Positions 1 through 20,068 of a DNA stretch of 21,190 bases are shown here, piece by piece. How positions within the stretch are numbered: position 1 is the stretch's first letter; the number at the start of each line of letters is the position of its first letter. Location of the stretch: positions 1 through 21,190 of IMG/VR virus record IMGVR_UViG_3300031857_001646. One strand, 5' to 3'. The position numbers were made by a program, and so were the translations under genes. The notes under the pieces were generated by a model, which saw only the letters and a program-made list of their open reading frames with translations, made no database searches and was not told the origin of the DNA. This DNA comes from a virus.

Positions 1-993
1 GCAACTAGACATACTAATTATAGTAAACATTCTAGTTTAGATGAACTTTTAAAGACTTTTCATTTTGCAAAAGAGTGGTATGAAACTTATACAGCTCATC
101 GTGCAAATCCAGTGTACGATCCAGGCATTGATTTTACTGGTGGGGAGCCGACTAACAATCCTAATTTTTGGAAGTTAATTAAAGAGATTAAAAATATTGA
201 TAATCGCTGGAGACTAAGTTTAACTACCAATGGCACGTGGCATTATAAACGTATGGATACTGTGCTTGATACATTGTTTGGCCTATCAATAAGTTATCAT
301 CCAGAAGCAGATAAAAAATTAAAGGATCGTGTTTTAAAAAACATTGTTGAAATTGCTCAGACTAATCTGTGGTTACAAGTTAACGTGATGCTTCATGTTG
401 ATTACTGGGATGAAGTTGTACAAGTATGTGACTTTTTAGATTCTAAAGGAATCAAATATAATCCTGTTCCTATTGGCGATGGCAATAAGGCTATTAGCGG
501 ATGGTTCATCGACGCAGATGGAAACAACAGACGTACAAGCCATGTTTACAACAAAGAACAACAAGAATGGTTTTGGAAGAAAACTAACTTTAAAGGTTCA
601 GCTAGCGACAGCAATGAAGGTACGAACATTGGTCGTAAATGTTGTGGAGGTAGATGCTTAGTAGGAAAAGTAGATGATGAATGGCAAGATGTAAAATTAG
701 TCGACAATCATTTCAAAGGATGGAGCTGTACAGTTGATTGGTACTTCCTACATATTAATCAAGAATACGGAGATATATTCCATCATCAAACTTGCCGAGC
801 GTTACACGGTGAAAAGATAGGTGCTATTGGTAATCTTAAAGATAGCGAACAACTTATTATAGATTTAAAAGAACGTTTAAAAAACCCAACACCCATCATT
901 TGTCCAAATCAACGATGTGGATGTGGCATGTGTACACCTAAAGCAAAAGACGAAAAGGATTTTAAAGTAATATGGGCCTCACTAGTCAAATAA
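1..993 (+). CDS. Radical SAM protein, 5'-truncated by window edge
   Basis: The reading frame is open from base 1 without a start, so the gene begins outside the window. What remains is about 330 residues. The motif FTGGEP (bases 130-147) is the radical-SAM 'GGEP' SAM-binding motif and is followed by a TTNG-type strand. The CX3CX2C cluster-binding motif must lie upstream of base 1 and cannot be checked. The C-terminal third is rich in cysteine (KCCGG, GWSC, QTC, CPN..CGCGMC), as expected for a SPASM-type auxiliary Fe-S region. Radical SAM enzymes use a [4Fe-4S] cluster and SAM to start radical chemistry; the substrate here is not evident. The gene overlaps the next radical SAM gene by 22 bases, suggesting co-translation. 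The GGEP region resembles that of the gene at 7810-8781. Confidence 0.85.
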   Translation, partial: ATRHTNYSKHSSLDELLKTFHFAKEWYETYTAHRANPVYDPGIDFTGGEPTNNPNFWKLIKEIKNIDNRWRLSLTTNGTWHYKRMDTVLDTLFGLSISYHPEADKKLKDRVLKNIVEIAQTNLWLQVNVMLHVDYWDEVVQVCDFLDSKGIKYNPVPIGDGNKAISGWFIDADGNNRRTSHVYNKEQQEWFWKKTNFKGSASDSNEGTNIGRKCCGGRCLVGKVDDEWQDVKLVDNHFKGWSCTVDWYFLHINQEYGDIFHHQTCRALHGEKIGAIGNLKDSEQLIIDLKERLKNPTPIICPNQRCGCGMCTPKAKDEKDFKVIWASLVK

Positions 994-2027
994 TTCCGAT
1001 TATAAAAGACCTACAGGGAAAGTTCTGCGAACGCCCGTTTAAGTCAATCGCCATCAAAGAAGATGGCAGTTGTTGGCTATGCTGTAGTTCCTGGCTACCA
1101 ACTCAGATTGGTAACCTTTACGATAATACGTTAGAGGAAATATGGCACGGAGAGAAAGCAACTGAAATTAGACAATCAATATTAGACTACAGTTTTAAAT
1201 TTTGTAATCACTCTGTATGTAATGACATTGCTGACAACAGTTTACCGGATAGGGAAGGTACTCCCGTTGTAGACGAATACCCATCACAAATATTTTTTGA
1301 AAATGACTTGAGTTGTAACCTAAGTTGCCCAAGTTGTAGAACTAAAAAAATATACGATACAAGCGGTCCGGAGTATGAACGTAAAAAAGAATTACATGAA
1401 AAGATTATTAATTTTATTTTTGACAAACCGCACGATAAAAGAATTGTATTAGAAATTACCGGTAGTGGAGATCCGTTTGGATCAAAGATATTTCGAGATT
1501 TCTTAACAACATTTGACCCGACTCCGTGGCCTAATGTTATATTAGATATACAAACTAACGGTGTTTTGCTTACGCCGACAAACTGGAAACGTATAGAAAA
1601 GTGGCATAGCAAAATTAGAGCGTTACGTATTAGTTTTGATGCATCGACAGAAGAAACATATAATATTGTTAGACAAGGCGGCAATTGGCCAACTTTGTTA
1701 TTAAACTGTGATTATATAAACAGTAAAGTGGCAAACAGACCTAACATCTATGTTATGACACAATTTGTTGTACAGGATCTTAATTATAAAGAAATGCCCG
1801 ACTATGTTAAACTAATTTTAGAAAGGTATCCAAATTTTTATAGTATTGGATTTCAGTTAGCTATAGATTGGAATACATGGGACGAGCAGACATACAAACA
1901 AAGAACTGTATGGAGTAACGTACATCCTGAATTTGCAAAATTTCAAAGAGTTCTAAAAGATCCAATTTTTAAAAATAATAAAATTAGACTGAATAATTTA
2001 GCAAGTGTGATAGTTCAGGAAAAGTAG
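972..2027 (+). CDS. Radical SAM protein with N-terminal SPASM/twitch-like Cys region
   Basis: This 351-residue protein has two parts. Residues 19-83 carry Cys at 19, 34, 37, 38, 78 and 83 around a 'GNLYDNTLEEIWHGE' segment, which is characteristic of SPASM/twitch auxiliary-cluster domains but sits here before the catalytic domain. The radical SAM core follows, with C115, C119 and C122 in CX3CX2C spacing and a degenerate SAM motif (TGSGDP instead of GGEP, about residues 163-168). The TNG strand (LDIQTNGVLL) and SFDAS strand are typical of the barrel. The ATG at 972 lies inside the end of the upstream radical SAM gene. The stop is TAG, followed one codon later by TAA. The 3' end overlaps the convergent gene at 1984-3378 by 44 bases. 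The substrate is unknown; a peptide or protein is a reasonable guess for this architecture, but only a guess. Confidence 0.85.
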   Translation: MGLTSQIIPIIKDLQGKFCERPFKSIAIKEDGSCWLCCSSWLPTQIGNLYDNTLEEIWHGEKATEIRQSILDYSFKFCNHSVCNDIADNSLPDREGTPVVDEYPSQIFFENDLSCNLSCPSCRTKKIYDTSGPEYERKKELHEKIINFIFDKPHDKRIVLEITGSGDPFGSKIFRDFLTTFDPTPWPNVILDIQTNGVLLTPTNWKRIEKWHSKIRALRISFDASTEETYNIVRQGGNWPTLLLNCDYINSKVANRPNIYVMTQFVVQDLNYKEMPDYVKLILERYPNFYSIGFQLAIDWNTWDEQTYKQRTVWSNVHPEFAKFQRVLKDPIFKNNKIRLNNLASVIVQEK

Positions 2028-3378
2028 ACTTAAAGTCTGTTCCTCGAGAAGTTTCTAACGTTTCTATATACTCTTTAAATGCTGGCAGTTGTGCAGAATG
2101 ATCCTCGGCGTCCATAAAGTCTAGTACTGCTTGCCAGCGTTTCCACCCGTAAGGATTGTTCTTCCAAAAGTCTTCGTCTTGTCTATAGTTCTCGTGTAAC
2201 CAATTAGCAAGTTCAGCAAAGCTTCTACGCACTTCTGCTTTATCCGCCGCTGGCAGTAATCTAATACTAAGGAATGTTGGAATGTACAACAAGTGCATAT
2301 TAACAATTCCACCGCCAGCTTGTATTCCACCAACTGTATTTTCTAAATTAACTTTCTTAAAGTTCTGCGTAATCTTCCACTTAGCAAAGTCTGCTAAGTG
2401 TTTAATGTTTAATATCTGTATAGCTGTGGCAATACTAACTTGGATGTTGTCGGGAGTGTTGTCCAGTTTGTGAAGGTTTCGCTCGATAGTATCCCAATCA
2501 CTAGGATAACGTATATAATAATTGCGGTCACCGACAGCATCAATGCTAAAGCCGACTTTAACTTTTTTAAATTTTTTCCATAGCTCGATAATTTCATCAT
2601 CTACTAATAATCCATTTGTGTTGTAACGTATAAGAATTTTGTCGGCATATCCTTGACGAATAATTTCTTCGAGGAACCATTTATGTTCACGAATCATTAG
2701 TGGTTCGCCGCCAGCAAAGTATACTTGCTTTAGATTAGGAATCTGTGCGTACATCTCCTTCCAGAAATCTGGATTTTCATGCCATTTATTATTGAAATCT
2801 TTTCTATCCCAAGCCATTTGTTCTTTAAGTTCTTTAGCCTGAAATAATGGATATATCTTTTTATGTTCGCCTACCCATTGACTGCTGTCGTGCGGACTAC
2901 ACATAACACACTTGAGGTTACAAGTATGACCTAAACGTAAGTCTAAGTAAACAAGGCGTTCAGGTATTGTGCCATCTTCTTCTGTTTGTTTAATAAGCTC
3001 TTCGACATCAATACCGTCTTCCATCCAAGAACCTGTTTCCCAAATGCGTTTACTAGCAACACCTTTAGATTCTTCAGCAATACACTTACTACAACTAGCA
3101 GGTATCTTTCCTTCCAACATAGTCAAGCGTACATCCTTCATGTACTCGTTGTTCCAGGCACTCATAGGAGTTTCACGTCCAAAGTTTGCTGGCTGACCTC
3201 GTTCGTTCTTTACTAGCCCGACTGTATGATTCTCTCCTGCACCGCTTGCGTTAGCACTACAGCATAGTCGCATATCTCCATTAGGACGGGTGGCAAAATG
3301 TATCCATGGCAATATGCAGAAAGTCTTGCTCCCTGATACTACTTCAATTTTGTCTTGCCATTGTTTAATTTTGTTCAT
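1984..3378 (-). CDS. Twitch-domain-containing radical SAM protein (N-terminal twitch)
   Basis: This 464-residue protein starts with a twitch/SPASM-like segment (C21, 'RPNGDMRLCC' with C39/C40, then 'TPMSAWNNEYMKDVR' and C96/C99). The radical SAM core contains C153, C157 and C160 (HTCNLKCVMC) and the SAM motif AGGEP at about residues 222-226. YNTNG and FSIDAVG strands complete the barrel signature. The order twitch-then-radical-SAM matches the family annotated as 'twitch domain-containing radical SAM protein'. It is the last gene of the nine-gene minus-strand unit and its ATG overlaps the stop of the 60-residue gene by 4 bases (ATGA). Its 3' end overlaps a convergent radical SAM gene. The reaction is unknown. 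Confidence 0.88.
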   Translation of the reverse strand: MNKIKQWQDKIEVVSGSKTFCILPWIHFATRPNGDMRLCCSANASGAGENHTVGLVKNERGQPANFGRETPMSAWNNEYMKDVRLTMLEGKIPASCSKCIAEESKGVASKRIWETGSWMEDGIDVEELIKQTEEDGTIPERLVYLDLRLGHTCNLKCVMCSPHDSSQWVGEHKKIYPLFQAKELKEQMAWDRKDFNNKWHENPDFWKEMYAQIPNLKQVYFAGGEPLMIREHKWFLEEIIRQGYADKILIRYNTNGLLVDDEIIELWKKFKKVKVGFSIDAVGDRNYYIRYPSDWDTIERNLHKLDNTPDNIQVSIATAIQILNIKHLADFAKWKITQNFKKVNLENTVGGIQAGGGIVNMHLLYIPTFLSIRLLPAADKAEVRRSFAELANWLHENYRQDEDFWKNNPYGWKRWQAVLDFMDAEDHSAQLPAFKEYIETLETSRGTDFKSTFPELSHLLNYSV

Positions 3379-3557
3379 GCAGGTGTATCTTGTAATATAT
3401 TAAAAAAATCAGATCCCATGTGCATTTCAACAATGTTTCTTAAATTAGGATTCTCATACATATCTCTTAGCTTATTAGATAATACAACATTTTGTCGTTG
3501 TATCTCCATGAACTTATCTAAATAAAACGGATCCGTAATGATTACTTTTTCTTCCAT
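3375..3557 (-). CDS. 60-residue protein embedded in the radical SAM operon
   Basis: I do not recognise this protein. It is 60 residues, acidic at the start (MEEKVIITDPFYLDKF), probably largely helical, and has no Cys, no signal peptide and no membrane segment. It lies 4 bases after the upstream 2OG-oxygenase gene and shares an ATGA overlap with the downstream twitch radical SAM gene, so it is translated as part of the unit. No clear Shine-Dalgarno sequence is visible, consistent with coupling. It could be an accessory or recognition subunit. It is also the only gene in the unit short enough to be a peptide substrate, but it lacks an obvious leader/core boundary. The tight overlap on both sides argues that it is real. 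Confidence 0.6.
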   Translation of the reverse strand: MEEKVIITDPFYLDKFMEIQRQNVVLSNKLRDMYENPNLRNIVEMHMGSDFFNILQDTPA

Positions 3558-3561
3558 AATG

Positions 3562-4179
3562 TTACCAAATGTTAAACAAATATTTTGGAACTAACCCACA
3601 ATTAGTTCCGGCGTGCCATAAACTACGGCTATCCCAACGATATACAGTTCCTTGGGGTTGGTTATAAAAACATTGGTCGTCAGCTATAAACACATGACCA
3701 AATGCTGGCTTGCCCATATGACAATGCCAACGAGGTTTAGTTGGTTCTTTACTCAGTCTAGCTTCATCGTCATTCACGTCCCAATGCCACGGTGCAAAGT
3801 ATCCAGGCCATATTCTACTGATCCAACAAGAATGTACTTTTTCTAATCCAACATATTCAGCAAACGTATCTACAATACTTTGATCAAAATTGTGGCCAGG
3901 AAAAAACATTTCCCATTCAACTGTTCCACCTTCAGCAGGAGTTTTATAACCAGCTGCTTCCCACATATCAGTTATAGGACTTAATCCTGGAATAGGATCA
4001 CCTGCTTTGTGTTTAGGCCCAATATTATTGGGAGAAATGTTTCTAGGTATTTCTGGCATCCATTCAGTAAATTCTGGAAGTAGTTCGTGTTCTGCTCGAT
4101 GCACTATTTGAACTGTAGAAAGTTCTAATATTAATTTATCCCAATCTATTATATCACATATTCCAACACGTTCAATCAT
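3562..4179 (-). CDS. 2OG/Fe(II)-dependent oxygenase-like protein (cupin fold), copy 2
   Basis: The protein has 205 residues when started at the ATG at 4179, which overlaps the stop of the preceding gene (ATGA). A longer in-frame start at 4230 would run deep into that gene and is less likely. The facial-triad pattern is visible: H132-W-D134 (APWHWDVND) and the distal H189 (SLWHAGTNCG). This resembles aspartyl/asparaginyl beta-hydroxylase-like and related phage 2OG oxygenases, which hydroxylate using Fe(II), O2 and 2-oxoglutarate. It is a clear paralogue of the neighbouring gene: both have a PGxxFD segment, PxHWDV, and HAGTNCG followed by P-x-YLF at the C-terminus. The substrate is unknown. The assignment rests on motifs only. 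Confidence 0.75.
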   Translation of the reverse strand: MIERVGICDIIDWDKLILELSTVQIVHRAEHELLPEFTEWMPEIPRNISPNNIGPKHKAGDPIPGLSPITDMWEAAGYKTPAEGGTVEWEMFFPGHNFDQSIVDTFAEYVGLEKVHSCWISRIWPGYFAPWHWDVNDDEARLSKEPTKPRWHCHMGKPAFGHVFIADDQCFYNQPQGTVYRWDSRSLWHAGTNCGLVPKYLFNIW

Positions 4180-4751
4180 TGTCGTGGTCTCCCTAAAAAA
4201 TGAAATAAGTATTGAGGCCACATACCGCAATTGGTTCCAGCATGATAATCCCTATAGTGATCCCACTCATATACTAAATGCTGTTCAACTAAGTGAAAGC
4301 AATCGTCTTTTAATATCAGTATGTTTCCAAAATGCGGCTTGTCAATAAAACAAACATAACGAACCAGTGGTCCTAACTTTAGCCACTCTTCTTCATGGTC
4401 TTCGACATCCCAGTGATAAGGCACACACCGACCCGGCATTACCTCACTGACAAAAACTCTCAAAGGATCTGCATTTACTAAATCAGCAAATTTTTCCTGA
4501 ACAGAAATATCAAAATGTTCACCTGGATAGTAATCCCACCATTCAATGTTGGATAAGTTATAATGAGCCTTTTTCCAATTGCCGATAACTTCCTTGTAAG
4601 ATTTTAATAAGGCAGTGTCATCTTCCCAATTAGACTCTGAGCGATCTACAACACTAGTAACTGTATTGTGGTCACCGGTGCGAGGCTGAATATTTTTAAT
4701 AATATCGTCCCAGTCAATTATTCCTAACGTAGATCCTACCTGCTTAGGCAT
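4176..4751 (-). CDS. 2OG/Fe(II)-dependent oxygenase-like protein (cupin fold), copy 1
   Basis: Started at the ATG at 4751, the protein has 191 residues; this start overlaps the end of the kinase-like gene by 8 bases. The upstream in-frame extension to 4835 lies inside that gene and is probably not translated. The iron-binding pattern is H113-W-D115 (PYHWDVED) and H170 (DYHAGTNCG). The layout matches its tandem paralogue at 3562-4179, with an IDWD motif near the N-terminus of both (residues 12-15 here). Two adjacent paralogues suggest a duplication followed by divergence to two positions or two substrates. Function beyond a probable hydroxylase is not supported by sequence alone. Confidence 0.75.
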   Translation of the reverse strand: MPKQVGSTLGIIDWDDIIKNIQPRTGDHNTVTSVVDRSESNWEDDTALLKSYKEVIGNWKKAHYNLSNIEWWDYYPGEHFDISVQEKFADLVNADPLRVFVSEVMPGRCVPYHWDVEDHEEEWLKLGPLVRYVCFIDKPHFGNILILKDDCFHLVEQHLVYEWDHYRDYHAGTNCGMWPQYLFHFLGRPRQ

Positions 4752-5430
4752 CAAACATCTCCTTATATATGAATCCCATATCTTCGTTGCCCCACTTAAC
4801 GTGTACACCAAGTGATTGCTTGAACATTGTTTCAAGATTATATTTACCGCTAACTAACTCGCCTGTCTCATCTAAACGGAATTGTGCTGTACTGTGTATA
4901 ATGCCGTCCATGTACTTTGCTTCAATAAACGGGTCACTAACTTCTACGCATCCATACCAGTCAATAGTACGTAACTGATCATCTGTGTCAACATAAAAAC
5001 AATGGGGGTACATTGTAAGTTTATACACTCCGCTGTTATATGCGTCTAGTAGCATATTTGAAACTTGTAGTCTCCAATTGTCTGGCATAGGGCCTTTATT
5101 GCCGTTTATAAGTGCGTTACAACTAATTCCCCAATTGTAGAATATGCGTTTGTTAGCATAATCAATATCAACTATAGTTGGACTATAAGGTTTGTTTTTA
5201 AATCTATTAACGTATTCGACTTCTTTATCAAAAAAGTATTCAACAACATCTTGCGTATAGCCTACGCGGTCGGGTTGCCATATACGCTGATAATTGTTTT
5301 GCCAATCGTAATTAGCACAGAACGTTTTCCCGTCTGGACTTATTAACGGCTCATATGTCTGCTGAGACATACAATTAGGCGTGCCATCGTTATCATATTT
5401 GTAAAAAGGTTTCCAATCACTTATTATCAT
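4744..5430 (-). CDS. Protein-kinase/APH-fold-like protein, function uncertain
   Basis: The protein has 228 residues. Residues around DKEVEYVNRF, then PTIVDIDYANKRIFYNWG, look like the N-lobe of aminoglycoside-phosphotransferase or kinase-fold proteins. A later segment, YPHCFYVDTDDQLRTIDW, has the spacing of a catalytic loop followed by an 'IDW' metal-binding strand. The classical HxD catalytic motif is not clearly present, so it may be a pseudokinase or an unrelated fold. The gene overlaps its neighbours by 14 bases upstream and 8 bases downstream, inside the modification cluster. A small-molecule or protein kinase role would fit, but the evidence is weak. Confidence 0.45.
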   Translation of the reverse strand: MIISDWKPFYKYDNDGTPNCMSQQTYEPLISPDGKTFCANYDWQNNYQRIWQPDRVGYTQDVVEYFFDKEVEYVNRFKNKPYSPTIVDIDYANKRIFYNWGISCNALINGNKGPMPDNWRLQVSNMLLDAYNSGVYKLTMYPHCFYVDTDDQLRTIDWYGCVEVSDPFIEAKYMDGIIHSTAQFRLDETGELVSGKYNLETMFKQSLGVHVKWGNEDMGFIYKEMFDA

Positions 5431-6250
5431 ATAAATGATCTCGAGGACTCCATCCTACCCTGGGCCTATCACTAAAAAAGCAACTGGCAATCCATTTGGT
5501 TCCCGATGTAATCCTTTTGCTTTCGTGTATTGTTGACCAATTGGTTGCTTCATCATACCCTTGTTCAAAATATAAAAAAGATCCGACCTTAGGATGTATA
5601 GTTACGTTGTGTTTAGGAAAGTATGTTTCTCCGCCTACGAAGTCTGTATTAAGATAAAAGATTCCTGTACCAACTCTATCTCCACCATTTTTGTAATAAT
5701 TAATCTGTCGTGGATCATACGGGTAGTCATGATGGTAAGCAAGGAACTGTCCGGTTTCGTAATTGTAAACATCGATGGCTTCAATATGGCTATACGGAAT
5801 TCGTGCGGCCTGCACTATAGCAGTTGCTAATACATCATAGTCGTAAGGATTAACTCCTAAACTAATACCTCTGTTTTCAACTTCTTCTGTAACCTGAGCA
5901 TAAGACTCAACGCGACTTTGATATCCGCTATTTCCGTTCATGCCAGATCGTGTATGCTTGGCTATCAAACTGGCACAAAACTCAGCTGTCAACATATTGT
6001 CAAATACGCTAATCCGAGGAAACTCCAATAACTTGTGTTCTTCTAGTTGGATAACTGTAATGTTTTTTGCAACTAGTCCAGTATCTGTTTCTATACGGTC
6101 AAAGGTCACACGTTGTAACTCAAACATAGTCTGGGGATCATTTGTTATGTCCCATCGTTCTGCATAGATGTTTGCGTTGTCTGTGTCAGCCGTAATGAAG
6201 CCATACTTTTTAGCATCATTATACCATTTTACTATTCCTGTTTCCATCAT
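5417..6250 (-). CDS. Cold-shock domain fused to prolyl-4-hydroxylase-type 2OG oxygenase
   Basis: This is a 277-residue two-domain protein. Residues 1-68 form a cold-shock domain: TGIVKWYND at the start and the RNP1-like KKYGFIT at 14-20. Residues 75-262 form a P4H-type dioxygenase, with the HxD iron ligands H173-H-D175 (AYHHDYP), a GGETYF strand, the distal H242 and the 2-oxoglutarate-binding K252 exactly ten residues later. Cold-shock domains bind single-stranded nucleic acid, and P4H domains hydroxylate protein or peptide side chains. The fusion suggests a hydroxylase brought to RNA, ssDNA or a ribonucleoprotein. Two ATGs, at 6250 and 6247, are both possible. The stop of the upstream radical SAM gene lies 5 bases before 6250. 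Confidence 0.88.
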   Translation of the reverse strand: MMETGIVKWYNDAKKYGFITADTDNANIYAERWDITNDPQTMFELQRVTFDRIETDTGLVAKNITVIQLEEHKLLEFPRISVFDNMLTAEFCASLIAKHTRSGMNGNSGYQSRVESYAQVTEEVENRGISLGVNPYDYDVLATAIVQAARIPYSHIEAIDVYNYETGQFLAYHHDYPYDPRQINYYKNGGDRVGTGIFYLNTDFVGGETYFPKHNVTIHPKVGSFLYFEQGYDEATNWSTIHESKRITSGTKWIASCFFSDRPRVGWSPRDHLYDNK

Positions 6251-6255
6251 CTATC

Positions 6256-7233
6256 CTAATTAAACTGCTCATTGAATTTATCAATTTTTCCGCATTGTCT
6301 ACTACACTCGCGAATTGGAGTACTACTCCAACTATTAGAAATAATATCAAATGACTTACTAACAAAAATTTCATCTAATCGTTTGTCTTTTAACGAATGA
6401 AATTTTACTCCACTATCTAACATATCAATTCTTGAAGGATGAATTGGAAGCATGGCATTATAATCTAGCCAACAACAGGGAATTAGTTGCCCTTTAGCAT
6501 TAACATATATACTTTTTTCTTTAAGAACTTTACAGGAAATTTCTGTTGTTTCTTCAAGTACATTACCTAGCAACTTAGAAATATTTTTACTTTTAACCGA
6601 TGGCAACAACACATGGCTTGTTGAACCGTCTTTGTTTAATACATTTAATTTGTCTTCCCTAAAACGAGAAGTATGTTTAAATTTAAAATCACTGAAGCCT
6701 AACTCTTGGCTTAGCTTACGGCACTGTTCAACTTGATGTTCGTTATGTTCAAATACTAACATGTGCCATTCAGCTGTGCCGCCAGCTTGTATAAAGTTAT
6801 AGGCGTTATGTATAATTTTATCAAAGTCTGTGCCAATGCGATATAACGTGTGAGTGTCTTCTAATCCATCAATACCAAATATAACTTTAACATTAGTCTG
6901 CGCTAACTGTTGCCACCATTCTTTATTCCTGGCACTGCCATTAGTGTTCATTCCAAGAGTTATAGCAGGATTTACTGTGCGTAGGAATTGAAATATTTCT
7001 AAAGTATCTCGAGCAATAATCGGATCACCCAAGTTGCCGCACATAAACAATCTATCCAATTGTTTAATAAAGTCTATAGGAAACCATTCTTTAAATTGAG
7101 CTAAAGAAATTTCATCTAACTTTAACCAAGGATTATCAAGACCTTGTATGTTTCTAGCACACATAGGACAACTAGCTTGACATTTACTAGTTAATTCTAA
7201 GTGGACTGATTTAATATCTTCTAAATTATACAT
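6256..7233 (-). CDS. Radical SAM protein with C-terminal SPASM-like region
   Basis: This 325-residue protein has C18, C22 and C25 (TSKCQASCPMC) in CX3CX2C spacing, then GNLGDP in place of GGEP (about residues 66-71), MNTNG and FGIDG strands. The C-terminus carries a cysteine cluster (SC, 'LIPCCW', 'RECSRQCG') typical of SPASM domains that bind auxiliary [4Fe-4S] clusters. In characterised SPASM proteins the substrate is usually a peptide or protein. The start at 7233 overlaps the methyltransferase gene by 8 bases. It is the canonical domain order, in contrast to the two N-terminal twitch proteins nearby. Confidence 0.88.
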   Translation of the reverse strand: MYNLEDIKSVHLELTSKCQASCPMCARNIQGLDNPWLKLDEISLAQFKEWFPIDFIKQLDRLFMCGNLGDPIIARDTLEIFQFLRTVNPAITLGMNTNGSARNKEWWQQLAQTNVKVIFGIDGLEDTHTLYRIGTDFDKIIHNAYNFIQAGGTAEWHMLVFEHNEHQVEQCRKLSQELGFSDFKFKHTSRFREDKLNVLNKDGSTSHVLLPSVKSKNISKLLGNVLEETTEISCKVLKEKSIYVNAKGQLIPCCWLDYNAMLPIHPSRIDMLDSGVKFHSLKDKRLDEIFVSKSFDIISNSWSSTPIRECSRQCGKIDKFNEQFN

Positions 7234-7819
7234 TGCGACCTATTACCATCCAACGGTCATATAGTTGTGTCTTTAAACTTCCAGACCACAGTTCCGTTAA
7301 ATGACTTTGTTTTCTAAATTCATCTAGAGTTTGTGCAATCCTAACATGTTCCGGAATAGCATAGTTATTGCTTTGTAGTACAACTAGACTGTCCTTAGGA
7401 AGTCTTGCTAACCAAGTTTCGTATTGGTCTTGTGTAATATGTTCACAGCTGGTGTTGATAATAACATCGCCAGATACTGGTACTGAACACATGTCCGCTG
7501 TTATTGCCCTAAAGCGACCATTTTGTTCTTCCATCTTATTCATCATAGTAGCAATAGGTTCGCAAGTTGGATCAACATCAACGCTACAAATGTAATGTGT
7601 AGGGATGTTACTTTGAAATATCATACTGGCTAATACGCCAACCCACCCGCCGTGTATATCTATTCTTACACTATGATGTATATGTTCATCTAAGCAATCA
7701 ATCAGCCATTCTTTGCTACGCAGTTGTCCTTGCCAGAAAGCATCCATAGTCCGCATAGGATTTGGACTTTGGCGGACTGCGTTCATCCAATAGTGTAAGT
7801 GTTCGGTGTCTATTTGCAT
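7226..7819 (-). CDS. Class I SAM-dependent methyltransferase-like protein
   Basis: The 197-residue protein shows a Rossmann methyltransferase pattern. Motif I is DIHGGWVGV at residues 54-62, the acidic end of strand 2 is SVDVDP (79-84), an ADM segment at 108-110 would contact adenine, and INTSCEHI (121-128) follows strand 4. The motif I glycine pattern is slightly unusual. It probably transfers a methyl group to a small molecule, protein or RNA; the sequence does not say which. It overlaps the first gene of the unit by 10 bases and the next radical SAM gene by 8, so it should be expressed with both. Confidence 0.72.
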   Translation of the reverse strand: MQIDTEHLHYWMNAVRQSPNPMRTMDAFWQGQLRSKEWLIDCLDEHIHHSVRIDIHGGWVGVLASMIFQSNIPTHYICSVDVDPTCEPIATMMNKMEEQNGRFRAITADMCSVPVSGDVIINTSCEHITQDQYETWLARLPKDSLVVLQSNNYAIPEHVRIAQTLDEFRKQSHLTELWSGSLKTQLYDRWMVIGRNV

Positions 7820-8781
7820 TTTGGTATTTTACTATCAGCCGAACTTACACAACTTGGTGTTACACAGCGTCTAGCCTCTTTAAATAGTTCGAAGTTATCT
7901 ATAGTACCTAACGGTTCATCGTGGCAACTATAACTTCGTTTGACTTCAGTTCCTCTTATTATAACACTTTGATAACCACTATTACAAGTCCAATTGGTAA
8001 ACTTATTAAATCCAAATGCATTAAATCTTTCTGCTTGATCAAACAAGTGTTCTCTACCATCTGCTTCGTATAATGCTATCTGATAAACATCTTCTCCATT
8101 GGCACGTTGAGGGAATCCTTCACGCATCTTCTGTATCATATCTTCGGTATAGCCATCTACAACCGCACTCGCCTGCGGATTACTTTGCGGCTTGAGTGTT
8201 ACATTAATACCGCGCTTGTGAAAGCGTTCCATACGTTCATACAATTCGTAAAACTTTTCTGGCACCATTACTTGATTAATAGTAACGTGTACTAGTTCAT
8301 ACTGCAACTGTAAGCACTTGTCACCAAACTCTTGTTCTTTAGCAAATTCGTCATGAAAGCTGGCTGTAATACTTCTGCGTTGTAACAAGTCTGTATTCTT
8401 ACACCAAGTGTTCCACCATTTACTACCAGGACTTAAATTAGTAGTCATGTGTATACTTTGGTACGTTGATTCCTTTTCGTCCAAATGTTTAACAAGATCA
8501 TTCAACTGTTTATAAGCAGTTGGCTCACCGCCGCTGAACGACCAATGGAACTGGTTAAACCCATTAGCTCGTGCTTGACGCTTAATCTCGTCTACAGTGG
8601 CTTTATACACTTCAAGCGGTTGGTGATCCAATTTATCACTGCGGGCATAGGGCCAACAGTAACTACAGTTATAATTACAAAAACGTCCCAAAATCCAACT
8701 AGTAGAAAATAATGGACGATCTAACATCGTGCGCTGTCCAAACTTAATAATTTGATCAAATGGTATTTGGTTAAAGTTCAT
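7810..8781 (-). CDS. Radical SAM protein (first gene of minus-strand unit)
   Basis: This 323-residue protein has C35, C39 and C42 (RFCNYNCSYC) with an aromatic before the third Cys, then FSGGEPTAY (SGGEPT at about 83-88) and an MTTN strand. The C-terminus has further cysteines (NWTCNSG, YSCHDEP, RCVTPSC, PKCK). It therefore looks like a full radical SAM enzyme with a possible auxiliary cluster. It is the promoter-proximal gene of the cluster and ends with TAG. It resembles the truncated gene at the left edge in GGEPT context and C-terminal cysteines. I see no convincing sigma70 promoter in the 70 bases upstream on this strand. Confidence 0.9.
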   Translation of the reverse strand: MNFNQIPFDQIIKFGQRTMLDRPLFSTSWILGRFCNYNCSYCWPYARSDKLDHQPLEVYKATVDEIKRQARANGFNQFHWSFSGGEPTAYKQLNDLVKHLDEKESTYQSIHMTTNLSPGSKWWNTWCKNTDLLQRRSITASFHDEFAKEQEFGDKCLQLQYELVHVTINQVMVPEKFYELYERMERFHKRGINVTLKPQSNPQASAVVDGYTEDMIQKMREGFPQRANGEDVYQIALYEADGREHLFDQAERFNAFGFNKFTNWTCNSGYQSVIIRGTEVKRSYSCHDEPLGTIDNFELFKEARRCVTPSCVSSADSKIPKCK

Positions 8782-8822: not shown

Positions 8823-8851
8823 TTGACTTTACCCATAAACGAATATATACT
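8823..8851 (+). promoter_or_regulatory. Sigma70-type promoter for the tRNA-like gene
   Basis: TTGACT (8823-8828) and TATACT (8846-8851) are separated by exactly 17 bases. The expected start point, about 7 bases after the -10 box, falls on G8858, the first base of the tRNA-like acceptor stem, so the transcript could have almost no 5' leader. It may also drive the genes from 9000 to 10955. Confidence 0.75.
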
Positions 8852-9877: not shown

Positions 9878-10060
9878 ATGATGGAAGATAAAGAAAAATT
9901 CGTTTTTACAGCTGAAGATATATTTCAGGAAATCCCAGGTGATCCTGATAATGTCATGATGAAATTCCCAGACGAAGTGTTAGCACTTACTGGCTGGAAA
10001 GAAGGAGATACCTTGGATATTAAAATAGAAGACGGTAAAATTATCGTTAATAAGGTATAA
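9878..10060 (+). CDS. AbrB/MazE/SpoVT-like swapped-hairpin protein
   Basis: The 60-residue product has an unstructured acidic N-terminus and then a C-terminal segment: MMKFPDEVLALTGWKEGDTL, continuing DIKIEDGKIIVNK. The pattern (P-x-E-V-hydrophobic, GWKEGD, then two short beta strands) is that of the AbrB/MazE DNA-binding fold, seen in transition-state regulators and antitoxins. No toxin partner is adjacent; the next gene is IF-1, so a classical toxin-antitoxin pair is unlikely. Starts at 9878 and 9881 are both ATG. Its stop overlaps the IF-1 start (TAATG). Confidence 0.7.
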   Translation: MMEDKEKFVFTAEDIFQEIPGDPDNVMMKFPDEVLALTGWKEGDTLDIKIEDGKIIVNKV

Positions 10061-10278
10061 TGGCTAAAGACGATATCATCGAATTAGTAGGGTCTGTTGA
10101 AGAAGTGTTACCTGGAAACATGTTTAGAGTTAAGGTAGATAATATGCCTAATACGCTACTGTGTTACATGGGTGGGAAATTAAAACAACACAAGATTAGA
10201 ATCATATTAGGCGACAATGTTAAAATTGAAGTTAGCCCATACGATTTGTCAAAAGGTAGAGTAACATATAGGTTGTGA
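10060..10278 (+). CDS. infA: Translation initiation factor IF-1
   Basis: The product has 72 residues, the same length as bacterial IF-1, and aligns from end to end: MAKDD-IIEL.GSVEEVLPGNMFRV at the N-terminus, GGKLKQHKIRIILGDNV in the middle and PYDLSKGRVTYR at the C-terminus, the signature end of IF-1. IF-1 is an S1/OB-fold protein that binds the A site of the 30S subunit and assists IF-2 and IF-3. The stretch replacing the usual variable loop (DNMPNTLLCYM) differs from host versions. A phage copy could bias initiation toward phage messages or act as an RNA chaperone. It lies between an AbrB-like gene and a metallopeptidase-like gene and overlaps both by a few bases or nearly so. Confidence 0.95.
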   Translation: MAKDDIIELVGSVEEVLPGNMFRVKVDNMPNTLLCYMGGKLKQHKIRIILGDNVKIEVSPYDLSKGRVTYRL

Positions 10279-10280
10279 CA

Positions 10281-10955
10281 ATGAACTCAATAATGGAAAC
10301 TGTTTGTTTAATTTGTACACATGTTAGACATAAAACTAAACAAGACACTAGTTTTCCAAAGTTGTTGGTTGAACTACGCCGTGAATTTAAACGTGCGGGA
10401 TTAGATGTAAAAATAAAATCACAATCAAAAAAGTTTCTCGACACAGAGGAATTTTATGTTAACGCATATTACGATCCTGAAGATGACAAAAATAGAGAAA
10501 CCCCAATTGAAATAATAATATATCACAATTTTGATAAAGATGTTATCTGGAGCCGTCGACAAATAACAGATTTGCTTATTCAAGTATTCGATGCCACAAT
10601 ACACGAATTCAAACATCAGCGACAAAGTCGAAAACGTGGTTATAAAGAATTTCATATACGGGCCGATGCCGAACATGAATTCCACGAATACTTAAAAGAT
10701 CCCGATGAGCTGGATGCTTATGCGTTAAGCATTACTATCGAGCTTTGCCGAACAGTTGGCAAATTTAGAGCATTACGATACATGCCAAAATTTACTACTT
10801 TGGCAAGATTTAAAGTTAACAAAGAATTTGCTAGTCCAAATCTCAATGCATACGTGAGCCATTTTGAAACGCCCGTAAGTCCATTATTAAGAAAACTTGC
10901 CAAAAAAGTTTATGTCCGATTGAAAAAGATTGACACGGACTTCATTTTCATGTAA
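10281..10955 (+). CDS. Zinc-metallopeptidase-like protein (HExxH), copy A
   Basis: From the ATG at 10281 the protein has 224 residues; a GTG at 10275 overlapping the infA stop is an alternative start. The motif TIHEFKHQ places HExxH at residues 108-112, and PDELDAYA (141-148) supplies a probable third ligand, E143. The C-terminal region (YVSHFETPVSPLLRKLAKKVYVRL) is basic and helical. It has the same plan as the protein at 20065-20793: a YY/D strand before an IEI strand, HExxH, a DxDE-x-x-A-x-A motif, then a helical tail with an aromatic-x-x-F segment. No signal peptide is present, so it would act in the cytoplasm or virion. The last 26 bases contain a promoter -35 and -10 for the next unit. 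Confidence 0.72.
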   Translation: MNSIMETVCLICTHVRHKTKQDTSFPKLLVELRREFKRAGLDVKIKSQSKKFLDTEEFYVNAYYDPEDDKNRETPIEIIIYHNFDKDVIWSRRQITDLLIQVFDATIHEFKHQRQSRKRGYKEFHIRADAEHEFHEYLKDPDELDAYALSITIELCRTVGKFRALRYMPKFTTLARFKVNKEFASPNLNAYVSHFETPVSPLLRKLAKKVYVRLKKIDTDFIFM

Positions 10956-10958: not shown

Positions 10959-10993
10959 ACAAAGTATATTAACTCACACACAGAGCGAGCGAA

Positions 10994-11686
10994 ATGGCTA
11001 ACAAAGAGTTCCCTACCCAACAAGTATTAGAGCTGGCCTGTGCGGCCCAACGAGTAAACGGTGCTTACCTCAAAGAAGCCGAAGCAATATATACAACCGA
11101 TGGTGTGTATATGTACTCAAAACAAATGAACAAAATTTTGATGTTGTGTACATTAGATCCTACCATTTGGACTGCCGATCCTAAAGATGCTCCTATGCCA
11201 CTTAAGGTACTACCTGAAGATACAGCACAAGCAGAAGAGATCAAAAAACATTTTCGAAAATTTATGTTTAGTGCTATTGAAGGCGAGAATGATTTTCAAA
11301 CCAACATCAACAGTATTCTTAGTAGTGATACAGTTAAACAAAATCAATTTGGGTATGTAGCCTGCCTACCAAGCGTTCATGTTAGAGATGTTGCACAAAC
11401 CAAAGTTAAACGTGCGGCTCAACAAGTCGAAGAAGGACCGTTGGCAGAAATTGGTAGTACCATTAAGGATTTGGACGCAGAAATTATTTCATCAATTAAG
11501 TCAAAAAACTTTGAAGGCTACAATATAGATGCTATAATCAACAGTAAGATGGTATCTTGGATGAGTAAAACGGATCTTAAGCTAGGGCCTTGCGTATTAG
11601 TCAAAGCCAAAGTTAAAGATTGCAATAAGCATTGGAAACATCAAAATGATGTTACTAGATTACACTATGTAAAGGCGGCACAATAA
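10994..11686 (+). CDS. Hypothetical protein, first gene of the central unit
   Basis: This 230-residue soluble protein is not recognised. It has no signal peptide or membrane segment. Its N-terminal half contains short aromatic strands (AIYTTDGVYMY) and its C-terminal half has a helical, charged region followed by LKLGPCVLVKAKVKDCNKHW. It directly follows a strong promoter and so should be an abundant early product. The leader resembles that of the gene at 9000, with a shared CACACAGAG element just before the ribosome-binding region. Its stop overlaps the next ATG (TAATG). Confidence 0.75.
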   Translation: MANKEFPTQQVLELACAAQRVNGAYLKEAEAIYTTDGVYMYSKQMNKILMLCTLDPTIWTADPKDAPMPLKVLPEDTAQAEEIKKHFRKFMFSAIEGENDFQTNINSILSSDTVKQNQFGYVACLPSVHVRDVAQTKVKRAAQQVEEGPLAEIGSTIKDLDAEIISSIKSKNFEGYNIDAIINSKMVSWMSKTDLKLGPCVLVKAKVKDCNKHWKHQNDVTRLHYVKAAQ

Positions 11687-11907
11687 TGTATAAGACAATC
11701 TACACAGAAGTTGAAGTAGACGTCGACTTGAGCGATTTTGATACCGACGATCTAATCGAAGAATTAGAGTCACGTGGTTCAGGAGTATTGGACTATGGCG
11801 ATGGTAAAGATGTGCTAAATGCTATCTACGAAAAGCGCAGGCTTGGACAAGATTATCAAATAGAATTGGATCAACTTATTTGGCTAGGATTGGGGAAAGT
11901 ACTATGA
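11686..11907 (+). CDS. Small acidic hypothetical protein
   Basis: The 73-residue product starts with TEVEVDVDLSDFDTDDLIEE, a strongly acidic strand-turn-helix segment of a type common among phage small proteins. The C-terminal half (LNAIYEKRRLGQDYQIELDQ) is helical. It could be a DNA mimic or binding partner because of its acidity, but nothing shows this directly. It overlaps the preceding stop (TAATG) and the next start (ATGA). Confidence 0.7.
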   Translation: MYKTIYTEVEVDVDLSDFDTDDLIEELESRGSGVLDYGDGKDVLNAIYEKRRLGQDYQIELDQLIWLGLGKVL

Positions 11908-12260
11908 GTGGATGGAATACAATTCAAAGAATCAAACGTGTCGAGCAAGCGATTGACGAGCTAGGCTTTAAGTTTAGCAAGAGCAAGCACAGTGATTGGA
12001 CGGAAGATCATGGTGCTCTAAGTCTTGTGCCAAAAGACCACGAAGCACTGCCAATATACAGCCGTGATGCGGAACTGTTTGTCGGTAGTCTAGAACGTCT
12101 AGAAGATTGGCTTGCTGGTGTTAAGTGGGCACGTGACTACGATATGATGTTGCGTATCAGTACTGATGACAAACGTGGTACCGCAGAGCAAAAGGAACGC
12201 AACCGACAATTGATGCGTACACTTAAAGAAGGCAAACGAGTAGAAGGTACTGTAGAATGA
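11904..12260 (+). CDS. Hypothetical protein
   Basis: The ATG at 11904 overlaps the preceding stop (ATGA) and is preferred to the TTG at 11880, giving 118 residues. The N-terminus has a helix (IQRIKRVEQAIDELGF), the middle has strands (GALSLVPKDHEALPIYSRDAEL) and LEDWLAGVKWARDYD is amphipathic. The C-terminus is basic. No family is recognised, and the protein looks cytoplasmic. Confidence 0.72.
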   Translation: MSGWNTIQRIKRVEQAIDELGFKFSKSKHSDWTEDHGALSLVPKDHEALPIYSRDAELFVGSLERLEDWLAGVKWARDYDMMLRISTDDKRGTAEQKERNRQLMRTLKEGKRVEGTVE

Positions 12261-13295: not shown

Positions 13296-13909
13296 TTACT
13301 ATGAAAGAATGGATGGAATTAGTTGACTATAAAATTACCGAAGGCGGTGATTATGGCTGGCAATGTTTTGGTCCTAACAGCTATCGACTAGATAGTTGGA
13401 ATGGTGTCCACGGTGTAGGTGGATACAGTTTTAGCATCGTGTTTAGTACTAAAAGTCAAAAGGTCTACGAAGTAAGCGTATGCGATTATACTAATGATCG
13501 TGCTTATCGCATGATTAATCCAAAGAATCAAGAAAAGCATCGCAAAGAAGCAGAAGCTCGCAATGTTAATTTGAACGAAGCCTGGGACGATGTTGACTAT
13601 GTGGACTTGGATGTAGTAGACGACTTTATCCAAAAGTGCTTGGCTATTCGAGCAGGTGAGGACTATGATACCCGTGTGCAAGTTCCGGTTGACTTTTCGG
13701 ATGAAGAACTGTTACAATACATGAAACTAGCGCACGAACGTGATATGACTTTTAACGAACTTGTTGAAGAAGCTTTGCGTCATGCTTTAGTAGAAATTGA
13801 AGCTGGACGTCTTACTAAAGAAGATGCTCAAAAATTTATTTTAGAGAGCAAAGGGAAACCTTGGCCATTTGCGAAAGAAGAAAGTGATGAAGATAAAGTT
13901 GGTCAGTGA
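13292..13909 (+). CDS. Hypothetical protein with C-terminal ribbon-helix-helix-like region
   Basis: The protein has 205 residues. Residues 1-125 look like an alpha/beta domain with YGWQCFG and SFSIVFSTKSQKVYEVSVCDY strands. Near residue 130 a segment begins: VQVPVDFSDEELLQYMKLAH followed by ERDMTFNELVEEALRHAL. A strand, a helix and a helix beginning TFNELVEEAL is the pattern of MetJ/Arc ribbon-helix-helix proteins, which bind DNA as dimers. The 3' end overlaps the phosphoesterase gene by 23 bases. Possibly a regulator; the fold call is moderate. Confidence 0.7.
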   Translation: MITMKEWMELVDYKITEGGDYGWQCFGPNSYRLDSWNGVHGVGGYSFSIVFSTKSQKVYEVSVCDYTNDRAYRMINPKNQEKHRKEAEARNVNLNEAWDDVDYVDLDVVDDFIQKCLAIRAGEDYDTRVQVPVDFSDEELLQYMKLAHERDMTFNELVEEALRHALVEIEAGRLTKEDAQKFILESKGKPWPFAKEESDEDKVGQ

Positions 13910-14747
13910 TTTACATTTGGAATTTTCGGATTGTTATATCAACAATGACGAAGGTGCCGATGTATTGATTCTAGGTGGTGATATTTGTATTGCCCAGGAT
14001 CTCCACGACCACCCTGAGCCAGCTAATACTGCGGACCAGGCCGCTATTGCTAACGGCACTGGATTGGGTCGTAGGCAGATGACAGCCCAGCGTTTTAGAG
14101 ATTTCTTCAAGCGTTGCAGTTTTCAGTTCCCCCATGTAATTTACATCATGGGTAATCACGAGTTCTACAATGGCAAGTTTTATGCTGGTATCAACTATAT
14201 GCGTGAGGAGTGTGCCAAATACCCTAACGTGTATATGTTAGAGCAGGACATGAAGATTATCGACGATGTTGTGTTTGTTGGTGGAACACTGTGGACCAAC
14301 ATGAACCGGCGTGATCCGCTTACCATGCATGCCATCGAAGGTATGATGAACGACTTTCGTATCATTCGGAACGATGCTAGGAACTATGCGGCTATGAGTG
14401 CGTTGGATGTTGCTATTCGTCACGACAAGACTCTTGCCTACATCGAGCACATTGTCCATGAGCATAGAAATAAGAAATGTGTAGTGGTTGGGCATCACAG
14501 TCCTAGTTTTCAAAGTGTGCATCCAACGTATGCTCACGAAAATTTGATGAATGGTGGTTACCACAGTGACTTGAGTGAATTCATTTTGGATCACCCACAG
14601 ATTAAACTGTGGACACATGGTCACACTCATCATCCGTTTGATTACATGATTGGTGAAACCAGAATTGTTTGTAACCCACGTGGTTATGAAAATGATGGTT
14701 ACAGCGAAGACACAGGTTGGAACCCTAACATAGTATTGGAAGTATAA
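13887..14747 (+). CDS. Calcineurin-like metallophosphoesterase
   Basis: From the ATG at 13887 the protein has 286 residues (a TTG at 13869 is less likely). All metallophosphoesterase motifs are present in order: SDLHLEF with D8 and H10, LGGD at about residue 32, MGNHEF with N90 and H91, VVGHHSP, and THGHTHHP, followed by NPRGY. These bind a dinuclear metal centre and hydrolyse phosphomonoesters or diesters. An insertion rich in Gln and Arg lies between the second and third motifs. The substrate is unknown; nucleotides, nucleic acids or phosphoproteins are all handled by this superfamily. Confidence 0.92.
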   Translation: MKIKLVSDLHLEFSDCYINNDEGADVLILGGDICIAQDLHDHPEPANTADQAAIANGTGLGRRQMTAQRFRDFFKRCSFQFPHVIYIMGNHEFYNGKFYAGINYMREECAKYPNVYMLEQDMKIIDDVVFVGGTLWTNMNRRDPLTMHAIEGMMNDFRIIRNDARNYAAMSALDVAIRHDKTLAYIEHIVHEHRNKKCVVVGHHSPSFQSVHPTYAHENLMNGGYHSDLSEFILDHPQIKLWTHGHTHHPFDYMIGETRIVCNPRGYENDGYSEDTGWNPNIVLEV

Positions 14748-15259
14748 TGTTTGATACAATGCCGTTGACACACGTTAGTCATTTTAAAGACTTCAAACGA
14801 GTTTGTCGAATTAATGACTATTGTGGCGAATGGGTGTACGATCGTATTGACTCAGCTATAATGTATGCAGATCATTATAGCTGGGTCTACTTCATTACTG
14901 TAAACGGTATTGTTTATAAAATTGGAGAAACATCTATGCCACTAGGTATTCGAATGTCCGACGGCCAACCTAAAAAAGGAACTAAATGTCGTTTTGGTCG
15001 ATACCGAAATCATAAAGGCACATATACCTACGACACAGACGAATACTGTAGAAATGAGCTTAGAAGCATTATTAATGATAAAAATAATCTTGTTGAATTT
15101 TGGGCGTATAAATGCCCAATGATTAAACAAACATTAACTATGGCTGGTGAAACTATTAGTGTAGAATCCCAGCTACATAAGGCTTTAGAAAAAGCGTTAC
15201 TTGATCAGTTTGAGAGAATAACTGGTGCATTACCAAAATTAAATAAAGGAAAAGCATAA
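14747..15259 (+). CDS. GIY-YIG-like endonuclease domain protein
   Basis: The 170-residue protein has WVYFITVNGIVYKIGET (residues 46-62), matching the GIY-YIG core of two strands, with the tyrosines conserved and the second motif reading YKIG. R69 follows at the expected helix, and RYRNH comes later. Near the C-terminus LEKALLDQFERITGALPKLN (147-166) matches the catalytic-Glu helix and the G-x-x-P-x-x-N ending of the family. This resembles T5orf172-type or restriction-type GIY-YIG proteins rather than an intron endonuclease. It might cut host or competitor DNA. Its start overlaps the phosphoesterase stop (TAATG); ATG 14759 is an alternative. Confidence 0.78.
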   Translation: MFDTMPLTHVSHFKDFKRVCRINDYCGEWVYDRIDSAIMYADHYSWVYFITVNGIVYKIGETSMPLGIRMSDGQPKKGTKCRFGRYRNHKGTYTYDTDEYCRNELRSIINDKNNLVEFWAYKCPMIKQTLTMAGETISVESQLHKALEKALLDQFERITGALPKLNKGKA

Positions 15260-16946: not shown

Positions 16947-16975
16947 TTGACAATCGAAACACTTTCGCATATAAT
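16947..16975 (+). promoter_or_regulatory. Perfect consensus sigma70 promoter for the envelope unit
   Basis: TTGACA (16947-16952) and TATAAT (16970-16975) are both exact consensus hexamers, with a 17-base spacer. The first ATG, at 17011, is 35 bases beyond the -10 box. This should be a very strong promoter for host RNA polymerase and would drive 17011 to at least 18459. Confidence 0.88.
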
Positions 16976-17010
16976 ATACACATGTTCAACAAACATAGAA
17001 GGCAAATATT

Positions 17011-17139
17011 ATGAAGGCATTTATAGCAGGCACAATTTTTGGACTAGTTCTAGCTACTGTTGGTTTTTCCGGCATTGCTAAGATTATGGACAAAGGCGTA
17101 GACACAGTTAAAACACACAGTCAGGAGTTGGCAAAATGA
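17011..17139 (+). CDS. 42-residue single-pass membrane peptide
   Basis: This gene directly follows the consensus promoter. The product has one hydrophobic stretch, FIAGTIFGLVLATVGFSG (residues 4-21), and a polar C-terminal tail ending in SQELAK. No lipobox is present. It overlaps the entericidin-like gene by four bases (ATGA). A membrane anchor or small regulator is possible; no family is recognised. Confidence 0.68.
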   Translation: MKAFIAGTIFGLVLATVGFSGIAKIMDKGVDTVKTHSQELAK

Positions 17140-17270
17140 AAACAGTTGTAGCACTTATTTTGGCTATTAATGTAGCCGCTTGTAGTACATCCGCCGGTAT
17201 GGTAAAAGGCCTTGGTGAAGACATCAAAGCTGGTACCGACTGGACGGCTTCTAAAATCAAATCCAACTAA
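17136..17270 (+). CDS. Entericidin-like small lipoprotein
   Basis: The 44-residue product has a lipoprotein signal with the lipobox VAAC (C16), followed by a short mature peptide, STSAGMVKGLGEDIKAGTDW, ending in SKIKSN. The pattern T-x-x-G-x-x-K-G-x-G-E-D-I-x-x-G is that of the entericidin A/B (EcnA/EcnB) family of very small cell-envelope lipoproteins, in which EcnB is described as a bacteriolytic 'toxin' and EcnA its antidote. Only one copy is present. In a phage it could affect envelope integrity at lysis or be a host-derived moron. The start overlaps the previous gene by four bases. Confidence 0.75.
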   Translation: MKTVVALILAINVAACSTSAGMVKGLGEDIKAGTDWTASKIKSN

Positions 17271-17279
17271 GGACTTAAA

Positions 17280-19278: not shown

Positions 19279-19422
19279 ATGGACGATCCACGCTGTTGCG
19301 GCTCCGGTGCTTGCATTATTAATAGTGAAGGCGAGTGCTGGTGCGGACAGCGTTGGGATGGCGAGAAGATGTGCTTTCCCAAAGTAGAAACTGAAAATAA
19401 AGAAAAGGAAGATAATGCCTAA
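19279..19422 (+). CDS. 47-residue six-cysteine protein
   Basis: The product begins [20 protein letters not shown] and continues with [12 protein letters not shown] before a charged tail. The six Cys (6, 7, 12, 20, 22, 32) with Gly spacing suggest a small metal-binding knot, perhaps Fe-S or zinc, rather than a disulfide peptide, since there is no signal sequence. It lies between the SPFH and ClpP genes, overlapping the latter by eight bases. From memory, small bacterial proteins starting with a similar 'DDPRCCGSG' exist in proteobacteria, which would hint at host origin; I could not check this. Confidence 0.7.
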
Positions 19423-20025: not shown

Positions 20026-20068
20026 CCATAGTACACTATAAATAGTAATGTATAGGAGTGTACTATGG
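20026..20068 (+). promoter_or_regulatory. Perfect 12-bp inverted repeat sequestering a start codon
   Basis: Bases 20026-20037 are the exact reverse complement of 20057-20068. The 19-base loop holds the late-promoter-like box and part of the Shine-Dalgarno sequence, and the ATG of the following gene (20065-20067) lies in the 3' arm. In a transcript reading through from clpP, the start codon and the end of AGGAG would be paired. Confidence 0.8.
20037..20044 (+). promoter_or_regulatory. T4-type late-promoter box TATAAATA
   Basis: This is an exact match to the T4 late promoter core. A transcript starting some 6-7 bases beyond it would lack the 5' arm of the surrounding inverted repeat. No -35 element is needed in T4 late promoters. 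The position, just before a gene with a good AGGAG site, supports a functional role. Confidence 0.6.

Follow-up and report, generated by a model that had tools for sequence, protein, structure and literature searches.

We analysed a window of 21,190 bases, which is the whole stretch presented here from the IMG/VR virus record IMGVR_UViG_3300031857_001646. Its left part (positions 1 to 8781) is packed with genes for radical S-adenosylmethionine (rSAM) enzymes, 2-oxoglutarate (2OG) oxygenases, a methyltransferase and a protein of kinase fold. The gene of a tRNA-like RNA without an anticodon, here called tL, lies directly beside them. From comparison with other viral contigs, we interpret the window as covering one end of a larger auxiliary island, mosaic in composition and probably biosynthetic, that occurs in large, uncultured tailed phages. 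All eleven genes listed for positions 1 to 8781 in an earlier reading of the same letters (the original prediction) were found in their places. Gene starts were those of a simple open reading frame (ORF) caller.

Table 1. Features of the window, in order of position
Feature	Position	Strand	Basis
RS1, rSAM, 5' end cut by the contig end	1..993	+	PF04055
RS2, rSAM with N-terminal SPASM-type cluster domain	972..2027	+	PF13186 (8e-11); CNLSCPSC
RS3, N_Twi rSAM protein	1984..3378	-	NF033640; CNLKCVMC
orf60, small conserved protein	3375..3557	-	13 homologues
oxB, HxD...H (Asp/Asn-hydroxylase-like) 2OG oxygenase	3562..4179	-	family alignment; longest ORF from 4230
oxA, paralogue of oxB	4176..4751	-	family alignment; longest ORF from 4835
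kinA, protein-kinase-fold protein, 228 aa	4744..5430	-	AlphaFold and Foldseek
CSDox, cold-shock domain fused to 2OG-Fe(II) oxygenase	5417..6250	-	PF00313 (4e-11), PF13640 (1e-9)
RS4, radical SAM/SPASM	6256..7233	-	PF04055 over cut-off
MT, class I SAM-dependent methyltransferase	7226..7819	-	AlphaFold and Foldseek; family absent from Pfam
RS5, rSAM, first gene of the island operon	7810..8781	-	PF04055; CNYNCSYC
Sigma-70-type promoter of tL, TTGACT-N17-TATACT	8823..8851	+	sequence consensus
tL, tRNA-like RNA, Leu-type body, encoded CCA, no anticodon loop	8858..8975	+	118 nucleotides; sequence pattern, covariance model
Phage translation initiation factor IF-1; operon downstream of tL, outside the island	10060..10278	+	PF01176 (3.5e-19)

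Enzymes encoded in the window

The original prediction had counted five rSAM proteins, and PF04055 was matched by exactly five, RS1 to RS5. The CX3CX2C motif that it had seen in four of them is present in RS2, RS3, RS4 and RS5. A complete copy of the truncated RS1, found on the related contig IMGVR_UViG_3300042691_014091 (hereafter G001), carries the motif as CNYDCTYC at residue 25. RS3 belongs to NF033640, "twitch domain-containing radical SAM", with 408.5 bits against a curated cut-off of 170, and RS2 gave a partial match of 68 bits to the same family. RS1, RS2, RS4 and RS5 fell below every curated NCBIfam cut-off, including that of NF033640, and are divergent rSAMs. Distant NCBIfam matches of RS5 were to rSAMs of the viperin, MoaA and QueE types. 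The nine minus-strand genes are coupled, as had been described, with overlaps of 4 to 14 bases or gaps of 4 to 5 bases when the start codons of the relatives are assumed for oxB (4179) and oxA (4751).

An HxD motif and a distal His were found in all three proteins previously proposed as 2OG oxygenases. In the oxA/oxB family, H149, D151, R167 and H206 were invariant in 23 of 23 sequences, and a search of oxB against the PDB gave a weak match to a beta-hydroxylase (E 0.16). The oxygenase part of CSDox is 2OG-FeII_Oxy_3. The methyltransferase had no Pfam match, yet its AlphaFold model (pLDDT 89) matched class I methyltransferases, best of all NodS (E 2e-9), which bears out the original assignment. 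A pattern for this family hit 38 places in 84,980 cellular genomes, none of which was confirmed as a relative.

The kinase fold of kinA had been overlooked. Its model (pLDDT 94) matched kinases in Foldseek (E 1.9e-5), with 246 matches below 0.001, and the catalytic loop looked degenerate by eye. Activity of kinA as a kinase is doubtful because no HxD...N pattern was seen by eye in the alignment; a kinase of the WbdD/RIO type was considered and rejected for the same missing pattern, even though the fold fits. A sequence-profile search of solved structures with the oxygenase, methyltransferase and kinase-fold families gave no significant match.

The island in related viral contigs

Contig G001 (63,549 bases) carries the window genes at essentially 100% identity, and it shows that the island runs about 13 kb past the left end of the window, which the original prediction had missed. 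G001 has 12 rSAM matches, 11 of them within its last 22 kb. The same 22 kb hold at least six 2OG-oxygenase-like genes, the class I methyltransferase, a QueC-like PP-loop protein (E 0.005), an SGNH-like gene, two SDR-like genes, a GNAT-like gene and a second kinase-fold paralogue (kinB). At the end of the island lies a 2OG oxygenase-amidinotransferase (AGAT) pair, with only the C-terminal part of the amidinotransferase. Several of these accessory genes were named from weak profile matches or from motifs recognised by eye, and the names are tentative. G001 also has tail-fibre-like genes, one of 3884 aa, and such genes adjoin islands elsewhere, in agreement with the phage context already proposed.

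Loci were collected by searches with RS4 (the best 80 of 197 relatives in viral contigs) and with oxB (13). The whole related contigs hold 2 to 15 rSAMs each. After removal of redundancy, 61 of 62 contigs had at least two (2 to 14 each), the exception, L068, stopping at the gene itself. Therefore, the clustering of rSAM genes goes beyond chance. The original prediction had named single, scattered homologues as the finding that would speak against it; these genes occur together. Besides the rSAMs, the methyltransferase family was found in 54 of the 62 contigs, SGNH in 21, PP-loop in 20, kinase-fold proteins in 17 and the oxA/B type in 16. The gene order is partly fixed: RS5-MT-RS4-(CSDox-kinA-oxA-oxB)-RS3; RS1-rS6-rS7-PPloop, on the opposite strand to the RS5...RS3 segment; oxC-SDR-SDR; GNAT-kinB; and oxygenase-oxF-AGAT. 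The neighbourhood is thus conserved across phages in its gene set and in part of its order.

About 12 different rSAMs, several 2OG oxygenases, a methyltransferase, kinase-fold proteins and accessory enzymes co-occur in many related phages, frequently next to tail-fibre genes. A core of RS5, MT, RS4 and RS3, with accessory genes, is defined across many phages. More distant islands add genes for a carbamoyltransferase, an epimerase and an aminotransferase. Among isolated phages, only weak protein or DNA matches to the window virus were obtained. L110, a viral contig of 202 kb, has 15 rSAM matches and, beside its island, genes for a carbamoyltransferase (13701-15221) and a pyridoxal phosphate-dependent aminotransferase (16959-17972).

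Dense rSAM clusters in phages have been described before. The Campylobacter phages CP220 and CPt10, whose rSAM module is interchangeable, encode 11 and 12 rSAM proteins, respectively, and every variable cluster includes a putative glycine amidinotransferase (PMC2853527). The likeness lies in the clustered rSAMs together with an amidinotransferase, as on G001, in T4-related phages; in CP220 the amidinotransferase is found among rSAMs and two proteins of sugar-transferase fold. However, the best identity of RS4 there is 25%, single genes reach 25 to 30%, the orthologous order is not shared, and 2OG oxygenases, kinase-fold proteins and the methyltransferase family are not annotated. For the environmental T4-like marine genome TARA_ERS488813_N000010, 12 rSAM genes were published together with one for an Fe-S carrier (PMC5332604). 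By this published description its rSAM number equals that of G001, which likewise has an A-type Fe-S carrier-like gene (by eye). The rSAM cassettes published for pelagimyophages are part of the host recognition cluster (PMC7029224). They are comparable in that rSAM genes share a hypervariable island with tail fibres, but they are described as cassettes only. The amidinotransferase of the G001 island is 41% identical to the "inosamine amidinotransferase" of cyanophage S-SCSM2R. The neighbour of the latter is a 2OG oxygenase, and the operon of the pair also includes five glycosyltransferases, one rSAM and an AHBA-synthase-like gene. A 2OG oxygenase-amidinotransferase pair and an rSAM are common to both; the S-SCSM2R operon differs in being dominated by glycosyltransferases and in its single rSAM.

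Therefore, the island is a variant of phage rSAM clusters already published, in a new composition. The original prediction knew of no characterised phage pathway of this kind, and this was correct, though phage clusters of rSAMs with an amidinotransferase were published in 2010 (PMC2853527). None of the rSAM-rich phages was functionally characterised in the publications describing them (PMC2853527, PMC5332604, PMC7029224). Although such clusters have been on record since 2010, no function has been assigned to them; the core defined here makes the question testable because, with its accessory set, it gives a defined operon.

A tRNA-like RNA next to RS5

The tL gene, also overlooked in the original prediction, sits between RS5, which starts at 8781 on the minus strand, and a plus-strand gene at 9000. 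Its ends pair as GTAGACG...CGTCTAC, followed by A and CCA, and its T arm is GTAGG-TTCGAAT-CCTAC. ARAGORN did not call tL in the window and called only one of its versions, as a tRNA-Pro; a search of the window against 4227 Rfam families, with E values up to 1, gave no match. As far as Rfam, ARAGORN and literature searches show, the family is undescribed.

In the loci fetched by protein searches, over a dozen versions besides that of the window were recognised by their acceptor and T arms alone. A scan of viral contigs with a DNA pattern gave at least 120 stretches. There are at least 75 distinct versions, and the counts below refer to 75. All seven acceptor pairs were kept in 73 of 75 versions, with many compensatory changes, while A73 was found in 75 of 75 and CCA in 74 of 75. 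In an alignment of 35 sequences, 10 of 19 pairs changed on both sides, which exceeded all 500 shuffles and all slid controls. The place of the anticodon arm is taken by an arm of variable length. In about 41 of the 75 versions, this arm is closed by a GNRA, UUCG or CUUG tetraloop on a stem of three or more pairs, according to a simple pattern that may misplace a few and leaves out two-pair cases. No conserved anticodon or anticodon loop was found across the 75 versions. tL thus has the acceptor and T arms with CCA of a canonical tRNA and lacks the 7-nucleotide anticodon loop with an anticodon. The pattern was matched exactly in none of 84,980 cellular genomes; the phage contigs that carry tL reach 345 kb. 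A divergent relative in phage G035 (L259, 4118-4229; 54.8 bits) lacks both the anticodon loop and the encoded CCA. It lies within an array of at least 26 tRNA genes, apart from the island, with a promoter-like sequence upstream.

The body of tL appears to be of leucine type. Its D region was matched best by the four Escherichia coli tRNA-Leu genes among 25 tRNA genes tested, and E. coli tRNA-Leu were the top cellular tRNAs with the covariance model, at 36 to 37 bits versus 89 to 115 for tL. The leucine determinants A14/A15, G18 G19, A20a, U48 (A15-U48) and A73 were present in 75 of 75 versions; the D- and T-loop nucleotides among them were demanded by the search pattern, so that this count is partly circular, and A73 and U48 were not demanded. 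Of the 25 E. coli tRNAs, none but the four tRNA-Leu had the full set. In E. coli, leucylation is decided by A73 and contacts between the D and T loops, not by the anticodon or the variable arm; tRNA-Leu variants without the anticodon arm are still chargeable, and editing by leucyl-tRNA synthetase (LeuRS) needs this arm (PMC9976931). From its nucleotides, tL looks chargeable with leucine. A charged tL would be a new viral use of aminoacyl-tRNA, and an uncharged one a new phage non-coding RNA of tRNA shape.

The strict promoter consensus precedes tL in the same placement in 47 of 75 versions, whereas 34 of 15,000 random positions had it. The promoter of tL, a strong one by its sequence, is divergent from RS5, the first rSAM gene. 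In 54 of the 70 loci with room to see, RS5 was the nearest upstream gene of at least 150 aa, in divergent orientation and 38 to 102 nucleotides from the pattern; another gene adjoined tL in 15 of the 70. Many island contigs, most of them fragments, had no tL above 55 bits. Since tL and the island each occur without the other, the idea that tL belongs obligatorily to the island was rejected. On the RS5 tree, the adjacency was strongly clustered and needed only 5 changes, and it may have arisen about once and then been inherited. Because the arrangement may have this single origin, a functional link between tL and the island is unproven. The operon with IF-1, a gene conserved in the relatives, starts just downstream of tL.

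Known RNAs were compared with tL. The pseudo-tRNA tRNA-Other of Bacillus cereus is a non-translational tRNA-like element flanking an island (PMC3399842). It differs from tL in being a single case on a bacterial chromosome and part of a larger regulatory RNA (PMC3399842), whereas tL occurs in many phage versions and has a promoter of its own. Phage T4 rnaC resembles tL as a small stable phage RNA with a T-arm-like hairpin at its 3' end (L263, 1409-1547). Membership of T4 rnaC and rnaD in the tL family was rejected: rnaC scored 16 bits, versus 89 to 115 for tL, and rnaD did not match. No tRNA-like RNA was found with the tL covariance model R1 in the stretches of CP220 and CPt10 that were searched.

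What the island may make

The viruses carrying the island probably make some chemical product. We tentatively favour, among several possibilities and at less than even confidence, that the island tailors a group of the sugar, aminocyclitol or amino acid type for glycans of the phage or host surface, because the contexts in S-SCSM2R, CP220, the distant islands and the pelagimyophages point this way, the 2OG oxygenase-amidinotransferase pair being the best comparative hint. The enzymes would act serially on one small scaffold of such a type, by radical reactions, hydroxylation, methylation and amidino transfer. The product would then be attached to a phage adhesin or a host surface glycan and might affect recognition or superinfection. 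Several points weigh against this reading. No glycosyltransferase was recognised by Pfam in the window's own island, and the sole hint of one is a weak match to Glyco_transf_10 (E 0.03). Peptide modification would suit the Asp/Asn-hydroxylase-like oxygenases and SPASM-type rSAMs equally well. In addition, the loci counted were collected through RS4 or oxB, so that the figures apply to the relatives of this island and not to phages at large. A putative glycosyltransferase family beside distant islands had no significant match among solved structures and is not counted as evidence.

That phage or host proteins or peptides are modified after translation, for example a tail fibre by SPASM rSAMs and hydroxylases, is an unlikely alternative. 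It draws on the SPASM/twitch rSAMs, the Asp/Asn-hydroxylase-like oxygenases and the very long tail-fibre genes that adjoin islands. In agreement with the original prediction, no recognisable precursor of a ribosomally synthesized and post-translationally modified peptide (RiPP), leader-binding domain or exporter was detected. No RiPP maturase exceeded a Pfam or NCBIfam cut-off, the NCBIfam peptide-maturase matches being far below. The gaps of the islands in the 62 contigs held no conserved precursor-like small ORF, and the conserved small ORFs that they did hold were not island-specific. orf60, the only conserved small ORF of the window, was rejected as a poor precursor candidate because in the relative L089 it forms the C-terminal domain of a cold-shock/oxygenase protein (10985-12016). 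A very conserved 74-aa protein (core ATNNNIYKFNKEAHHNSQNWY) lies between MT and RS4 in distant islands only (L050, 9777-10001, and relatives). It was likewise rejected as a precursor, being confined to those islands and absent from phage records, and is a possible partner or substrate there. The islands also contain the carbamoyltransferase, epimerase and aminotransferase genes, and the comparative context leans to the tailoring of sugars or small molecules. Modification of a virion protein, one of several roles suggested in the original prediction, was not directly supported.

A pathway dependent on tL is also unlikely. In it, tL would be charged by the host LeuRS and, without decoding, carry or donate leucine to be modified by the rSAM, 2OG oxygenase and methyltransferase set. 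The leucine identity nucleotides in 75 of 75 versions would suit this, as would the behaviour of E. coli tRNA-Leu, whose anticodon arm is dispensable for charging and required for LeuRS editing (PMC9976931). It also agrees with the position of RS5, which in 54 of 70 loci lies next to tL in divergent orientation, 38 to 102 nucleotides away, and with the RNA-binding cold-shock domain fused to one oxygenase. Against it stand the other neighbour in 15 of 70 loci and the many islands without a detected tL, the tree on which the 5 changes amount to about one gain with losses, and the part of the D- and T-loop conservation imposed by the search pattern. Moreover, the FemAB-type domain Acetyltransf_6 (PF13480) was found in none of 22 contigs. 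It is still more doubtful that tL is a dedicated non-decoding leucyl-tRNA feeding leucine, or an analogue that escapes editing, to the island for a modified amino acid or aminoacyl product. If true, viruses would have a tRNA-dependent biosynthesis that uses a carrier tRNA made for the purpose.

Modification of nucleic acids or nucleotides, as hypermodification of phage DNA or as RNA modification, is very unlikely. The QueC-like PP-loop protein (E 0.005), a QueD-like gene elsewhere on G001 (by eye), the cold-shock domain and the nearby tRNA-like RNA are consistent with it, but no DNA glycosylase, thymidylate/dCMP hydroxymethylase or partner of the tRNA-guanine transglycosylase (TGT) type was recognised in the island. 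To our knowledge, the SPASM-type rSAMs here far outnumber those of any DNA-modification pathway. General metabolic help to the host by oxygen-independent reactions at low oxygen was proposed for the Campylobacter phages CP220 and CPt10 (PMC2853527). Here it is highly improbable: the island combines rSAMs with 2OG enzymes that require oxygen, and no rSAM of the window exceeded the family cut-off of a known enzyme of primary metabolism.

Elsewhere in the window, a pair of paralogous plus-strand genes (10275-10955 and 20065-20793) encodes HExxH-like motifs, HEFKH and HEIIH, and the products are possible metallopeptidases; the second had no Pfam match. The same phage region also carries, on the plus strand, genes for an SPFH/Band 7 lipoprotein (18468-19277) and a ClpP-like protease (19415-20005).

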